Notes under the pieces: model-generated
What the model was told of the DNA's origin: nothing
Seen by the model: only the letters and a program-made list of their open reading frames with translations
Databases searched by the model: none
Made by a program: the position numbers and the translations under genes
Shown here: positions 40,230 to 47,769 of the stretch, in pieces
Layout of the letters: the number at the start of each line of letters is the position of its first letter
Position numbering within the stretch: position 1 is the first letter of the stretch
NCBI RefSeq assembly: GCF_021729135.1
Contig: NZ_JAJTWW010000001.1
Location: 62,001-126,000 of the forward strand
Direction: 5' to 3'
From: Brevibacterium daeguense
GTDB taxonomy: Bacteria > Actinomycetota > Actinomycetes > Actinomycetales > Brevibacteriaceae
DNA: 64,000 nt

Positions 40230-41474
40230 ATGAGCGGATTCGAGGGCTACCGCAAGGGTGACCCCGTGACGAAGAGGATTGAGATCGGCCTGCTGATGGC
40301 CGGGCTCGCAACCTTCACTCTGCTCTACAACACTCAAGCCATACTGCCGTATTTCACCCGCGACTACAGCATCAGCCCGGCGACGGCTGCGCTGTCGGTG
40401 TCGGCCGCCACCGCGGGTCTGGGACTGGGTCTCCTGGTCGCGGTGCCGATCAGCGAGCGGATCGGCCGCGTCCGGCTGATCCGGTGGTCCATGACGCTCT
40501 CTGCCCTGCTGGGGATCGGGGTGGCGCTGGTCGACAGCTGGGAGCTGTTCCTGGTCACCCGGTTCGTCATGGGCTTCGTGCTGGCGGGGCTGCCGGCGAC
40601 GGCCGCGGTCTACCTCAGGGAGGAGATCCACCGGTCGTACGCGACCTCTGCCACCGGCGTCTACATCTTCGGCACCACTCTGGGCGGTCTGGCCGGCCGC
40701 ATCGTGTCGACCGGGATCATCGACCTGCTCGACCGGACAGGGCTGGGGGAGCGGGTGCCGTTCAGCGCCTCGCACGCCGCTATGCTCGGCACCGCAGTGA
40801 TCGCCCTGGTGTGCGCCGGTGCCTGCTGGGTCCTGCTCCCGGAATCGCGCGGGTTCTCCCCGCAGCGGGATTCGGCCGGCGAGCTGGTGCGGAAGTTCGG
40901 CCGCGCGTTCAGGGATCCCGTCCTGCTGGCCCTCTACGTCACCGGCGGACTGGGGATGGGGACGTTCGTGGGCGCCTTCAACGTCCTGGGCTTCCGGCTC
41001 GAGGCCCCGCCCTACAGCCTCGGGATCGGCGCCATCGGACTGCTCTACCTCATCTACCCGGTCGCCGGGTATGCGAGTGTGCTCGCCGGCCGGGCGGCCG
41101 ACCGCTACTCGCTGCGCGCAGTCCTGCCCTTCGGATCGGTCATCGGGCTGGTGGGCGTGCTCGTGCTCGCGGCACGCCCGCTGGTGCTCGTGGTGCTGGG
41201 GATGGCGATCATGGCGATGGGCTTCTTCATCATGCACTCGCTGGCCTCGGCCTGGGTGGCGGTGCGCGCCACCGCGACGGTCCAGGTGCCCGCGCAGGCG
41301 GCATCGATGTACATGCTGTTCTACTACGCGGGCTCATCGATCAACGGCAACCTCGCGCCCCTGGCCTGGGAGAGCTTCGCGTGGCCCGGGGTGACGGTGC
41401 TCTGCGGGTCGATGATGGCCAGCGCGTTCGTGCTGGCTCTGCTGCTGCACCGCTCCAAACCCGCGGTCACATGA
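40230..41474 (+). CDS. MFS transporter (YnfM-like)
   Basis: About 414 residues with 12 predicted membrane helices. The start LLMAGLATFTLLYNTQAILPYF, SERIGRVRLIRWSM (motif A-like loop), RFVMGFVLAGLPATAAVYLREE and later AGRAADRYSLRAVLPFGS match the YnfM/arabinose-polymer group. The substrate is unknown. The start is uncertain: ATG 40224, ATG 40230 or GTG 40266, the last with AAGGG upstream. Confidence 0.88.
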   Translation: MSGFEGYRKGDPVTKRIEIGLLMAGLATFTLLYNTQAILPYFTRDYSISPATAALSVSAATAGLGLGLLVAVPISERIGRVRLIRWSMTLSALLGIGVALVDSWELFLVTRFVMGFVLAGLPATAAVYLREEIHRSYATSATGVYIFGTTLGGLAGRIVSTGIIDLLDRTGLGERVPFSASHAAMLGTAVIALVCAGACWVLLPESRGFSPQRDSAGELVRKFGRAFRDPVLLALYVTGGLGMGTFVGAFNVLGFRLEAPPYSLGIGAIGLLYLIYPVAGYASVLAGRAADRYSLRAVLPFGSVIGLVGVLVLAARPLVLVVLGMAIMAMGFFIMHSLASAWVAVRATATVQVPAQAASMYMLFYYAGSSINGNLAPLAWESFAWPGVTVLCGSMMASAFVLALLLHRSKPAVT

Positions 41475-42701: not shown

Positions 42702-44003
42702 ATGAACACTCAGCTCTCCCGCTCTCTCGGTCTCTCGGATGCCGTCATCATCGGGCTCGGCTCGATGATCGGCGCCGGGATCTTCGCCGCTCTGGCGCCG
42801 GCCGCAGCCGAGGCGGGCAGCTGGCTGTTCCTCGGCCTCGCCCTGGCCGCCCTCGTCGCCTACTGCAACGCCACGGCCTCCGCCCAGCTCGCCGCGCAGT
42901 ATCCGACCTCCGGCGGCACCTATGCGTACGCCCGCGCGCAGGTCAGCCCCTGGCTCGGGCTCGTCGCCGGCTGGGGGTATGTGATCGGGAAGACCGCCTC
43001 GACCGCTGCGATGGCGCTCACCTTCGCAGCGTATGCCGCCCCAGCCGGGTGGCAGCAGCCGCTCGCGGTCGCGGCCCTGATCGCCCTGACGGTCGTCAAC
43101 TCGCTGGGCATCTCCCGGACCGCTGCGATGACCCGGGTCATCGTCATCGCCGTGCTGGCGATCCTGACGGTCTTCCTCGTCGTCATCGCCGCCGGCGGGC
43201 AGTTCAGCCTGTCCTCGCTCTGGGCGCCTGAGGCGGTCGGTGCGGCCGGCGCGGTCGGTGGGCCAGGCGCGGTCGGTGGGGCAGGCGACTCCGGAGTGCC
43301 GAACGGCTTCGATCTGCTCGGTGTGCTGCAGGCCGCGGGGATCCTCTTCTTCGCCTTCGCCGGCTATGCCCGCATCGCCACTCTCGGCGAGGAGGTCAAG
43401 GACCCGCAGCGCACCATTCCCAGGGCGATCATCCTGGCCCTGGGCATCACCACGACCGTCTATGCCGTCGTCGCCGTCGCGGTCATGGGGGTGCTCGGCC
43501 CGGTCGGACTCGCGCAGAGCCAGGTGCCCCTCGCCGATGCGGTGGGCAGCTCTGCCTGGGCGCAGGCGCTGGTCCGGGTCGGCGCTGCCCTCGCCTGCCT
43601 GGGCGCCCTGCTGGGCCTCGTCGCAGGCATCGGGCGGACCTTCTTCGCGATGGCCCGCGACTCCCGACACTTCCAGTTCTTCGCCCAGGTCAGTCGATTC
43701 GGGACTCCGGCGCGGGCGGAATTCCTGGTCTGCGCAGTCGCCATCGTGCTCGTGCTCCTCGGCGACATCCGCACCGCGATCGGCTTCTCGTCCTTCGGTG
43801 TGCTGATCTACTACTCGATCACCAACATCACCGCGTTCACGCAGACCGCCGAGCGACGGCGCTACCCGCGGGCACTCCAAGTGCTCGGTGTGATCCTGTG
43901 CGTGGTGCTGGCATTCACCGTGTCGCTGGAGGCGGTGATCGTCGGGGCGATCCTGTTCGCGGTGATCGGTGCGGTCGTGCTCCTGCTGCAGCGGCGGGGC
44001 TGA
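42702..44003 (+). CDS. APC-family amino-acid permease
   Basis: 433 residues, about 12 helices. The first-helix signature GLSDAVIIGLGSMIGAGIF, the PTSGGTYAYARAQVSPWLGL loop and the central LFFAFAGYARIATLGEEVKDPQRTIPRAI define the family. A Gly/Ala-rich external loop (AAGAVGGPGAVGGAG) sits before helix 6. The substrate is not predictable. GTGGGGA ends just before the ATG; TAGGAC at 42689-42694 could also make this leaderless. Confidence 0.92.
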   Translation: MNTQLSRSLGLSDAVIIGLGSMIGAGIFAALAPAAAEAGSWLFLGLALAALVAYCNATASAQLAAQYPTSGGTYAYARAQVSPWLGLVAGWGYVIGKTASTAAMALTFAAYAAPAGWQQPLAVAALIALTVVNSLGISRTAAMTRVIVIAVLAILTVFLVVIAAGGQFSLSSLWAPEAVGAAGAVGGPGAVGGAGDSGVPNGFDLLGVLQAAGILFFAFAGYARIATLGEEVKDPQRTIPRAIILALGITTTVYAVVAVAVMGVLGPVGLAQSQVPLADAVGSSAWAQALVRVGAALACLGALLGLVAGIGRTFFAMARDSRHFQFFAQVSRFGTPARAEFLVCAVAIVLVLLGDIRTAIGFSSFGVLIYYSITNITAFTQTAERRRYPRALQVLGVILCVVLAFTVSLEAVIVGAILFAVIGAVVLLLQRRG

Positions 44004-44093: not shown

Positions 44094-45725
44094 TCAGAGC
44101 ACCCAGCGGCGCCACGTGCCGGGCAGCCGGCCGTCGGTGGTGATCACGACGCCGGGGTAGTCGGCGACAAGGGCGTCGACCCGCGCCCGGGCCGCGTGAT
44201 CGAGCGTCTCGAGCAGACGGTCGATGACGAGCACCTCGGGGGAGCCGAACGCCGCCCGCGCCAGGTGCACGAGACCGCGCTGGGAACCCGTGAGCGGTTC
44301 GCCGCCGCGTTTGAGCGGCGTCTTCTCCTGCCGGGGCAGCTGTGCGATGACCTCGTCGAGGCCCAGCTGCCGGACGATTCGCTCCGCGTCATCGGGACCG
44401 GAGCTGGGGTCCCGATACCGGATCGCGCGGTCGATCGTGCCGCGCGGCAGCAGATCCGAGCCGCGCGCCACGCCGAGCACGCGGCGGCGCACCGCCCCCT
44501 CGGCTCGCGACATGTCGATCCCCGCGATCCGCACGACCCCTGCCCGGTTGCGGCCGATGCCGGCGACCGCCTCCAGCAGCGCGGACACCGCCTCGGGATC
44601 CTCGGACTCGATGCGGATCCGGTTCCCCGCCCGGGCGAGCAGAGTGGGCACCCGCCGGTCGTCGGCGAAGACCAGGTTCCGAGCTTCGAAGGTGTAGCAG
44701 CCGTCCTCATCGGCCCGGTCGAGCGCGACGTCGAACTCCCGGGTCCGCTCGTCGACCGGTGCCTGTTCGAGCGCCGGCAGCAGGACGCGGCGGGCGGCCT
44801 TGAAGTTCTGCCGGTACTCGACCACCCGCCCCAGATCATTCAGGGGAGTGGCGATGATGCCGACGACGAGCAGCGCGGCGGTCACCTGCGCGACCGACAC
44901 CGTGCCGAACACCCCGAGCACCACCACAACCGCCGTGGCCAGCGCGCCCGCCGTGGCGGCAGTCCCCCGCAGCACGCCGGTGGCCCGGGAGCGGTGGATC
45001 GCTGCTTCCACGACCTTCGAGCCGATCCTGTCGATGTGGTTGCGCTCGCGGTTCTCGCCGCCGTTGGTCCGGATCGAGTCGAGCGCGTTCACGGTGTCCG
45101 CGGTGGTGGCGGCGAGCCGTCCGCGCATTCGCCGCACGGCGCGGGCGCGCTCGAACACCACCCCGGAGACGGCTGCGAAGACCGCGACCATGAGGCTGCA
45201 CACCATCAGCAGTGCGAAGGCCAATGCGGGATGGATGAGGGCGAGCACGACCACCACGCCGAGGACGAGCGGGACGGTGACGATGAGGGGGGCGATCCCC
45301 AGGGCGACCCAGTTCCGCACAGCGGTGAGGTCGTTCGTCGTCCGCGCGATGATGACCCCTGGGGAGGTCTTCTCGTTCCCGCGGAGCGCGGAGCCGATGA
45401 GCAGCACCCGGATCCGGTGGATGTAGTGCTGCCCGAGGCGTTCGGCCAGCACCCGCTCCAGTGCCCGGACAGCGCCGATGCCCAGCGCCGCGCCGAGGAT
45501 CACGAAGACGAGTGACTGCCTGCTCGTGCTCATCGCGGTGTGCGTGGCCCAGGCGCTCGCCCCGGCAAGCGCCGCCGTCAGCAGACCGCAGGCGAGCAGG
45601 CCGGCCAGATGCCACCGCCGGGCGCCGGCGGCGAGCTTAGGGAGCCGGACGGTCGACCGGACGGCCTCGGCCTCATCGGCAGGAGCCGCGGCGGTCATGC
45701 CGCGCGCCTCGAGGAGGGGCTTCAC
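44094..45725 (-). CDS. ABC-exporter-like protein with a degenerate, probably inactive ATPase domain
   Basis: 543 residues. About 330 residues form a type IV ABC exporter membrane domain with the coupling helix GVIIARTTNDLTAVRNWV. The C-terminal ~200 residues are laid out like a nucleotide-binding domain but each motif is lost: the Walker A position reads RAGNRIRIESEDPEAV with no Gly-Lys-Ser, the signature is LTGSQRGLVHLARA, Walker B is VLVIDRLLETLD with Arg for the catalytic Glu, and the switch reads TTDGRL with no His. It is not frameshifted, so the loss looks selected rather than random. ATGA overlap with the upstream P-loop gene. Function unknown. Confidence 0.82.
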   Translation of the reverse strand: MKPLLEARGMTAAAPADEAEAVRSTVRLPKLAAGARRWHLAGLLACGLLTAALAGASAWATHTAMSTSRQSLVFVILGAALGIGAVRALERVLAERLGQHYIHRIRVLLIGSALRGNEKTSPGVIIARTTNDLTAVRNWVALGIAPLIVTVPLVLGVVVVLALIHPALAFALLMVCSLMVAVFAAVSGVVFERARAVRRMRGRLAATTADTVNALDSIRTNGGENRERNHIDRIGSKVVEAAIHRSRATGVLRGTAATAGALATAVVVVLGVFGTVSVAQVTAALLVVGIIATPLNDLGRVVEYRQNFKAARRVLLPALEQAPVDERTREFDVALDRADEDGCYTFEARNLVFADDRRVPTLLARAGNRIRIESEDPEAVSALLEAVAGIGRNRAGVVRIAGIDMSRAEGAVRRRVLGVARGSDLLPRGTIDRAIRYRDPSSGPDDAERIVRQLGLDEVIAQLPRQEKTPLKRGGEPLTGSQRGLVHLARAAFGSPEVLVIDRLLETLDHAARARVDALVADYPGVVITTDGRLPGTWRRWVL

Positions 45726-46891
45726 CGATCCTCACTCCTCCCGGCCAGCCCGGTGATCTGCAGTGCAAGCTCCGGCTGGGCGAGCTCGAAGGTCGGGGCG
45801 ACGGGCACGTCGAGAGCCGCGCGCGCCTCGGCGGCGGCCAGTGGCGAGGCGGTCAGGACGCCGGACACGCAGGCGACATCGACGCCGCGGGCGGTGAGGA
45901 AGTCGACGCCGGCGACTGCTCCGAGGGCATCCGTCGCCGCGAACACGACGGTGTCGACCGCGGCGGCGAACACCGGATCCTCGAGCAGCCGGCGGGTCTC
46001 GGCCTGGTAGAGCCCGTCGGCGATCTCGAGGACGATGACCTCGGAGTCGGCGCTGGTGAGCGCCCGGATCTGAGCGGTGAGCAGGGCTTTGATGAACGGG
46101 TAGTCAAGCTTGAAGGTGGTCGGGTAGCCGAAGTCGGTGAAGTCGAGGACCGCGGCCGCGCCCGCGTCGCGGAACTGGCCGGGGTCGTTGCCCGCCCCGG
46201 TGCCGGTGACCTTGACCGCGCCCACCTGCCGGCCGGCGGCGGTGAGGCCGTGGATGAGCTGGGCCGCGGTGGTGGACTTTCCGGAGTTCATCGAGGTGCC
46301 GAAGACGGCGATGACCGGCGGCCTGCCGGGCGTGGACTCGTCGACGATGTCGACGGAGAGATCCGCCAGACCGGCCATGGTGAGGCGCTGCGTCTTCGTC
46401 GACAGCAGGCCGAGCGGTTCGATGACCGTGGCGTCCTCGACCGCCGCGTGCTGGTCGATGACGAGTCCCGCCACGCCGCCCGCGGCGACCATGCTGCACG
46501 GCCCGAGGCCGTCGGGGACGACGGCGTGGAACTGGTCGGCGGCATAGCGGTTGCCGTAGGCGAGGACGACCTCGTCGCCCGCGAACAGGCCGGCGCGGCG
46601 GGACGTCGGAGTCTCGATCCGCTTGTGCTTGCCCAGGGTGACGACCCTCGCGAGCAGGATGTCGCCGGGCAGCGGCCGGACCGAGTCGCCGGACAGCAGG
46701 TAGAGCCCCGCCTGGCCGTCATGCGCGAGCTGGGCGGCGCGGCGGGTGGTGTAGGAGAACTTGGCACGCCGCAGTCGCGCCGGGGCGAGCGCTTCGAGAC
46801 GGACCTGCTCGTCGACCGCGGCGATCGGATTGAGAGCCGACGGGGTGTGGGGGAGGGCGGGGATCTGAAGGGTGTCGGAGACCTGTTCCAT
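45722..46891 (-). CDS. P-loop NTPase of unknown function (MobB/BioD/DUF1611-like fold)
   Basis: 389 residues. The first ~185 residues form an unrecognised beta-rich domain (LPGDILLARVVTLGKHKRIE, GDEVVLAYGNRYAADQFHAVV). The second half is a SIMIBI-type P-loop domain: IAVFGTSMNSGKSTTAAQLIHGL at about 195-217, VGAVKVTGTGAGNDPGQFRDAGA and VIVLEIADGLYQAETRRLL. This resembles MobB, dethiobiotin synthetase and DUF1611 proteins, which use ATP or GTP on small ligands. Its stop overlaps the start of the pseudo-ABC gene, so the two are co-translated. AAAGG precedes the ATG. Confidence 0.75.
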   Translation of the reverse strand: MEQVSDTLQIPALPHTPSALNPIAAVDEQVRLEALAPARLRRAKFSYTTRRAAQLAHDGQAGLYLLSGDSVRPLPGDILLARVVTLGKHKRIETPTSRRAGLFAGDEVVLAYGNRYAADQFHAVVPDGLGPCSMVAAGGVAGLVIDQHAAVEDATVIEPLGLLSTKTQRLTMAGLADLSVDIVDESTPGRPPVIAVFGTSMNSGKSTTAAQLIHGLTAAGRQVGAVKVTGTGAGNDPGQFRDAGAAAVLDFTDFGYPTTFKLDYPFIKALLTAQIRALTSADSEVIVLEIADGLYQAETRRLLEDPVFAAAVDTVVFAATDALGAVAGVDFLTARGVDVACVSGVLTASPLAAAEARAALDVPVAPTFELAQPELALQITGLAGRSEDR

Positions 46892-47161: not shown

Positions 47162-47203
47162 GCCGGGCTGTGCGGCGATCGGAGTCCGGGCACTGTGGTC
47201 GTC

Positions 47204-47769
47204 ATGAATGCTCCGACCTCAGACCCCCACGACTTCCGAACCGCCGCTCGCCTCGATACGCTGCGCGAACTCCACTCCCGCCGGGTCGTCGTCTTCAACG
47301 GCGAGCTCGACGACGACAGCGGGATGGAGATCATCTCCCGCCTGCTCCTCCTGTCGGAGGAGAATCCGGCCGACGACATCCACCTGTGGATCAACTCGCC
47401 GGGCGGGTCAGTCCCGATGCGCTACATCACCGCTCCGGTGAGCACGATGTGCGTGAGACAGGCGGTCGCCGATGCCGCGCTGCTGCTGGCAGCCGGCTCC
47501 CGGGGGACGCGAGCCATGCTGCCGCACGCCCGGCCGTGCTGCGGCAGCCGCAGATCGAGGGCGGCCGAGCATCGATCCCGGACCTCATCGTCGCCGCGGA
47601 CGAAGTCATCCGGCAGCGAGACGAAGTCGAGCAGATCCTCGCTGCAGGCACCGGTTGCAGCAGCGAGCAGCTGCGGCAGGATCTTGATCGGGACTTGGTG
47701 CTGACCGCGGAGCAGGCGCTGGCCTACTGCCTGATCGACAGAGTCGCCGCCTCCCGCCGAACTCCCTAG
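47204..47769 (+). pseudogene. Frameshifted, catalytically dead clpP paralogue
   Basis: The first frame (47204 to about 47530) gives a ClpP start: SRRVVVFNGELDDDSGMEII, INSPGGSV, then VSTMCVRQAVADAALLLAAGSRGTRAMLPHARP. The +2 frame continues from about 47535 with LRQPQIEGG, VAADEVIRQRDEVEQILAAGTG and DLDRDLVLTAEQALAYCLIDRV to the stop at 47769. The catalytic Ser (normally ASMGA) is replaced in AVADAAL, the catalytic His (normally IHQP) is Arg in LRQP, and about ten residues after SPGGSV are missing. So decay preceded or accompanied the frameshift. The promoter and operators still look intact. It converges on a ClgR/PopR-like regulator and overlaps its end. Confidence 0.82.

Follow-up and report, generated by a model that had tools for sequence, protein, structure and literature searches.

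How does a half-size ATP-binding cassette (ABC) exporter come to keep its nucleotide-binding domain (NBD) once every core motif of its ATPase has been replaced? The question is raised by two genes on the minus strand of a 64,000-nucleotide stretch of the Brevibacterium daeguense genome (contig NZ_JAJTWW010000001.1, positions 62,001 to 126,000), which we refer to as the window. The first gene (45722..46891) encodes a BioD/DUF1611-like P-loop protein of 389 residues with the motif GTSMNSGKST at residues 198-207, and the second (44094..45725), which has a GTG start, an ATPase-dead type IV ABC exporter half-transporter of 543 residues. As the original prediction, made from the letters of this stretch, had stated, the start of the ABC gene overlaps the stop of the P-loop gene: both open reading frames are found at these positions and share the four nucleotides GTGA (45722..45725, minus strand), with GGGAGGAG nine bases 5' of the GTG. 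The overlap likely couples the translation of the two genes, which look like a complete two-gene operon. Here we show that the ABC protein belongs to a recurrent family of ATPase-dead ABC exporters that has kept its NBD and is under selection, and there is very little doubt in our minds that this family is both real and derived. As for the task of the dead protein, we propose ATP-independent transport, at a probability of roughly one half.

The membrane domain of the window's ABC protein (44760..45623, minus strand, residues ~35-322) scores 53 bits against the Pfam profile ABC_membrane, clearly above the cut-off of 28, and a structure model gives it six long helices. The NBD, which in the model likewise adopts an ABC fold, is barely above the ABC_tran cut-off (27.6 against 25 bits), and its match begins at profile position 25, presumably past Walker A. 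Aligned to an intact relative (L071; loci with a P-loop homologue carry an L number), Walker A GPNGAGKS has become SEDPEAVS, the signature LSAGQ reads LTGSQ, the DE of Walker B is DR, and another residue stands in place of the switch His. The features of an ATP-driven ABC exporter (Walker A, signature, catalytic Glu, switch His) are all missing from the protein, just as had been noticed at first, and alignment of the homologues shows the same positions to be degenerate across the dead group. In the aligned set the Walker A lysine occurs in 0/67 dead-group proteins vs 9/9 intact ones, and in the enlarged set the Walker A pattern in 0/68 vs 16/16. One of the 67 retains a signature pattern and four a Walker B DE pattern, with no protein having two of the three motifs. 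The nine aligned intact ABCs all have the lysine and the signature Ser and Gly, while seven carry the catalytic Glu (Gln in two) and seven the H-loop His. Most of these nine are also without a Q-loop glutamine, which is present in the aligned place only in L112, itself near the outgroup discussed below. With its core ATPase motifs lost, the ABC protein can hardly be a conventional ATP-driven exporter.

The original prediction further described the membrane domain as normal, which holds for the profile match but not for intracellular loop 1. This loop and the coupling helix 1 region lie at residues ~109-140 (45306..45401, minus strand). Across the loop 67/67 dead proteins have 43 residues, and the nine intact ones and L074 have 47; a later set agrees, with 43 in the dead L235 and 47-48 in seven intact proteins. 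The shortening by four residues precedes coupling helix 1 and is found in all 67 dead proteins and L235, and in none of the 16 intact ABCs. L074 (genome G195) is a case of its own: its Walker A reads GRAGSGAT and its catalytic Glu is replaced, but it has no loop 1 deletion and falls outside the main dead group. As such, its partial motif loss is a second, independent loss event.

How widespread is the pair? Counting the own genome where it was searched, homologues of the P-loop protein occur in 3/59 near relatives, 19/396 genomes of the order, 14/38 of one genus and 52/197 of one family. The class search added 18 genomes (29/394 overall) and the phylum search a further six with long, strong matches, most of the others among the 56/396 genomes listed having short P-loop-only or distant DUF1611-like matches. 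Within the window's genus the homologue is found in 1/36 other genomes, and since that copy (L070) groups with other families rather than with the window, the gene pair has likely spread horizontally. Altogether 100 loci with a P-loop homologue were examined (the window, 18, 2 of Promicromonospora, 6 of 15, 55 and 18), and in 86 of these an ABC exporter gene lies downstream on the same strand within 1.5 kb, with one gene between in L112. The proposed co-occurrence of the two genes is thereby borne out. No such ABC gene follows at the remaining 14 (L072, the damaged L075, the distant L076, L172 at a contig end, L242-L250 and L252), nor at nine other loci (L115-L123) that hold distant P-loop relatives. 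Of the 86 linked ABC genes 68 are dead and 16 retain Walker A and signature; the partly degenerate L074, and L222, which is truncated by its contig before the NBD, were excluded from both counts. One genome (G913) holds two modules (L173 and L217), one with a dead and the other with an intact ABC.

Does the dead group represent one event or many? In trees of the membrane domain only, without outgroup (49 and 50 rows, motif columns absent), the dead rows lie on one side with support 100/100, and the same dead branch (100/100) is recovered in a whole-protein tree with ten outgroup exporters, in which the outgroup falls on the intact side. The outgroup tree used a simpler model, and near-identical rows were removed from the trees. 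The dead state is therefore derived, and arose once. Nearest to the dead group are L237 (90/95), followed by L239-L241 and L251 (90/99), whereas placements within it, that of the window included, have weak support. The outgroup does not occupy one side of a branch, as L112 falls among it and L113 and L114 adjoin. In this tree 13 of the 16 intact ABC partners are of the same subfamily as the dead proteins, and in the tree of the P-loop proteins the dead partners likewise form one group (100/99), which includes L075. Because relatives of the P-loop gene are also linked to intact ABC exporters (16 loci, 13 of them with the same subfamily), its pairing with the ABC gene is older than the motif loss. 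The original prediction had held that close homologues with an intact Walker A in the same operon would speak against it. Intact homologues do share the operon, but they are distant ones outside the dead group (L071 and L073, with 31% and 30% identity to the window's ABC protein).

A motif loss of this kind might simply mean decay, and the dead gene would then be a pseudogene or relaxed remnant. That loss does occur in the system can be seen at L075 (genome G123), where the P-loop gene has suffered an internal deletion and lacks a following ABC gene. The ratio of nonsynonymous to synonymous rates (dN/dS) was calculated with our own Nei-Gojobori script for 25 pairs of dead homologues, no row being shared between pairs, with medians of 0.13 (P-loop gene), 0.19 (membrane domain) and 0.21 (NBD). 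NBD values went up to 0.46 and so stayed below 0.5 in 25/25 pairs; the membrane domain reached 0.63 for one pair (L215-L216), a value that rests on a synonymous rate (dS) of 0.01. Furthermore, the 68 dead ABC frames are open, and come from several families. Open frames and low dN/dS contradict decay, a reading to which we attach next to no credence. As the original prediction had argued, a clean frame with total motif loss speaks for a changed function, and the stop codons and high dN/dS that it named as signs to the contrary are not found among the dead homologues.

Taken as the mean majority fraction per stretch, a rough guide as the two groups are unequal in size and depth, conservation of the Walker A stretch is 0.46 in the dead vs 0.69 in the intact group, and of the next stretch 0.35 vs 0.64. 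The Walker B stretch holds 0.60 vs 0.65, its motif residues nevertheless being lost, while the coupling-helix, transmembrane helix 6 and Q/X regions show 0.61-0.65 in the dead vs 0.50-0.58 in the intact group. The main rival to transport is that the dead ABC has become a scaffold or receptor, which tethers the P-loop enzyme to the membrane or acts as a sensor of its ligand, with the NBD as docking surface. This would account for an NBD kept under selection without ATP motifs, for the translational overlap of the two genes, and for N131, R305, Q306 and P317, which hardly vary in the dead group and differ from the residues most common in intact proteins. Against it, conservation of the membrane domain, coupling-helix regions included, is no lower in the dead than in the intact group, with the above caveat of unequal size and depth. 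Moreover, the same neighbour clusters stand beside some intact and some dead modules, suggesting one pathway, and we regard a scaffold or receptor as possible but rather unlikely.

What, then, is the partner? The P-loop protein of the window has a BioD-type P-loop fold, and the structures nearest to its P-loop domain are BioD and DUF1611. These matches cover mainly residues 188-388, extending back to 139 in 2g0t, which we take to be a DUF1611 protein, and to 121 in 2obn (BioD/DUF1611). The N-terminal part had been called an unknown domain; the alignment gives it a likeness to DUF1611-like proteins. Profile searches of the PDB gave weak matches only, largely to the P-loop region, and the protein is below the family cut-offs: 18.3 bits against DUF1611 (PF07755; cut-off 25), which its homologues L119 (25.4) and L123 (26.7) exceed, 13.3 against BioD TIGR00347 (83.3) and 21.6 against MobB TIGR00176 (76.2). 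We have therefore named it neither MobB, BioD nor DUF1611. Candidate active-site residues are K205, T207, K227, D236, E289 and D292, identical in 76/76 proteins of a reduced set that leaves out near-identical rows, L074, L075, L076, L172 and L252.

Two positions of the partner follow the state of the ABC. A recount that took in all 100 P-loop rows has Ser at residue 206 in 69/69 partners of the dead group (L222 included), and Thr in the 16/16 partners of intact ABCs and in L074; the 14 ABC-less rows have Thr in 12, the damaged L075 among them, Ser in L172 at its contig end, and a gap in L252. Residue 254 is Phe in 69/69 dead-group partners vs Ala in 12/16 intact-ABC partners. L075 is an exception, grouping with the dead partners yet having Thr at 206, with Phe at 254. 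The nucleotide site of the P-loop protein changed along with the motif loss of the ABC. This may be read as a takeover of energy supply, in which a SIMIBI-type P-loop ATPase would act on the dead transporter from without, driving or gating it, and an ABC exporter would have been remade into something like ArsA/ArsB. ATPases of the ArsA/Get3 type have a deviant Walker A with an extra lysine. The window's P-loop, GTSMNSGKST, does not show this deviant motif, and its domain is nearest to BioD/DUF1611 structures. The ArsA/ArsB precedent is discussed in an excerpt of PMC4979069. However, the pairing with intact ABCs predates the loss, the Ser/Thr swap is conservative and may be a single event, and L075, damaged and ABC-less inside the dead-partner group, has Thr. 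We consider a takeover improbable. The original prediction had also suggested that the P-loop protein may supply or sense nucleotide for a pseudo-transporter. Intact ABCs have the same partner, which leaves the idea that the partner is there because the ABC is dead unsupported, and we rejected nucleotide supply as the reason for the pairing.

Degenerate ABC sites are mostly known as the one silent half of a working dimer. The dead ABC might be the silent half of a heterodimer, its other half-transporter being encoded elsewhere. The window's genome does contain another unpaired exporter gene (C3:51451-52266), and an ABC ATPase gene (cluster C26) is found in the neighbourhood of L059, L070 and L073. 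Heterodimeric exporters with one degenerate site are described in excerpts of PMC7756269. In ABC exporters with such a site (TmrAB, TM287/288, TAP and CFTR) catalytic residues of an NBD are replaced, as in the dead ABC, and one consensus site remains; according to the same excerpts, several of them were shown to bind ATP at both sites. The dead ABC differs in that no site is left in the protein: the degenerate half of a heterodimer keeps its Walker A, a pattern absent from 68/68 dead proteins, although a partner elsewhere is still conceivable. A half that has lost both Walker A and signature would leave the two composite sites of a dimer incomplete. Cluster C26 occurs at no more than three loci, and at one of these the exporter is intact; the intact relatives look like single genes. 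A heterodimer seems to us, if anything, slightly less probable than a takeover.

Some accessory genes are common to modules on both sides of the loss. An HTTM-type membrane gene (cluster C13) follows three intact modules (L110, L113 and L114), and the same BLAST cluster holds the HTTM-type gene near the dead modules L201, L203, L207, L210, L211 and L215, while a small gene (C22) occurs in L110, L114, L203, L211, L215 and L216. In the three intact-module genomes the module-side gene accounts for 1/1, 1/2 and 1/3 of the matches to the HTTM Pfam profile; in the six dead-module genomes searched this profile has no match at the module (none at all in four, elsewhere in two), and the dead-side genes are named by BLAST to the intact-side genes only (E 2e-20 to 2e-76). 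L074 and L217 have a CapA-like gene and a hydrolase in common, RimK-like ATP-grasp genes lie near L111, and a D-aminopeptidase gene near L112. Around the distant P-loop relative L076 (4356-11194) are genes for phosphoenolpyruvate phosphomutase, a thiamine pyrophosphate enzyme, aldehyde dehydrogenase and an ATP-grasp-like protein, probably a phosphonate pathway. These neighbours are hints, not an identification, but would fit a small peptide-like or carboxylate product.

We propose a conserved two-gene module. One member would be a cytoplasmic enzyme of the BioD/DUF1611 superfamily that depends on ATP and probably activates a carboxylate or carbamate by forming an acyl phosphate; the other, a half-size exporter of the type IV ABC kind, would handle the product of this enzyme. 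The ancestral exporter would have been ATP-driven. In one lineage Walker A, signature, catalytic Glu and H-loop have since gone, as have four residues of coupling loop 1, while the dead NBD is predicted to persist as a folded domain seated on the coupling helices, where it could serve as a gate or as a docking platform for the enzyme. Given that the partner is still present and that modules on both sides of the loss have some accessory genes in common, we infer that the transport job was kept with a different source of energy. Most likely the dead protein continues to provide an export path, energised without its own ATP hydrolysis, perhaps by a proton or product gradient. In domain order and in the fold of membrane domain and NBD it is like other type IV (ABCB-type) exporters (TmrAB, MsbA, CydDC, LipB/PrtD), from which it differs in lacking Walker A, signature, catalytic Glu and switch His, and from its intact relatives in the shorter loop 1. 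Precedents for ATP-independent transport are the isolated membrane domain of MsbA and SbmA/BacA of the SLiPT family, according to excerpts of PMC13316013 and PMC12003926 a relative of the ABC-exporter membrane domain that has no ATPase and is driven by the proton gradient. SbmA has no NBD, however, whereas the dead ABC retains one and so falls outside the SLiPT definition.

Several observations weigh against transport by the dead protein. Selection on the dead NBD fits a scaffold or receptor equally well. According to an excerpt of PMC4979069, full-length MsbA with the Walker A lysine deleted shows no efflux, while a form without NBD does, so a retained dead NBD could block transport. In the conservation comparison, proton coupling gains no support from an acidic membrane residue specific to the dead group: E95 and E303 do not vary among dead proteins, yet are also the commonest residues there in intact ABCs. 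The signature stretch is still conserved (0.69 vs 0.74 in the intact group) with its motif residues gone, for which we can offer no explanation beyond folding. Furthermore, three of the 16 intact ABCs (L112, L113 and L114) stand on the outgroup side and are not clearly of the same subfamily, and 11 loci (L072, L242-L250 and L252) carry the P-loop gene with no ABC downstream, which means that the enzyme can exist without it.

Around the window's module, as judged by eye, a permease-like frame downstream of the ABC gene runs convergently and ends at 44003, and upstream of the P-loop gene, after a gap of ~300 bp, comes a divergent ClpP-like fragment (47170-47769, plus strand), which is split over two overlapping frames and apparently frameshifted. 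An MFS transporter gene near the module (40230-41474, plus strand) shares a BLAST cluster with genes upstream in L199, L200, L202, L204-L206, L208, L209 and L218. Two-component genes (C2/C3) recur near the pair, these being families that are common in general.

Among the matches listed for the open-licence literature, none concerns these two genes as a pair, or ABC exporters that as a group have lost all core ATPase motifs and kept their NBD. The dead proteins form an apparently homomeric exporter group in which every core ATPase motif is gone and the NBD was kept. Under selection this group has diversified alongside a single recurring partner. Natural controls are available in the intact relatives, which stand in the same operon and once in the same genome; this makes the conversion of an ABC exporter to ATP-independent work with its NBD retained directly testable. 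The pair also offers a way into a branch of the BioD/DUF1611 enzymes that is as yet uncharacterised. Many Actinomycetota hold a family of ABC proteins that selection has kept intact beside the same putative ATP-using enzyme, and that probably works without an ATP motor of its own.
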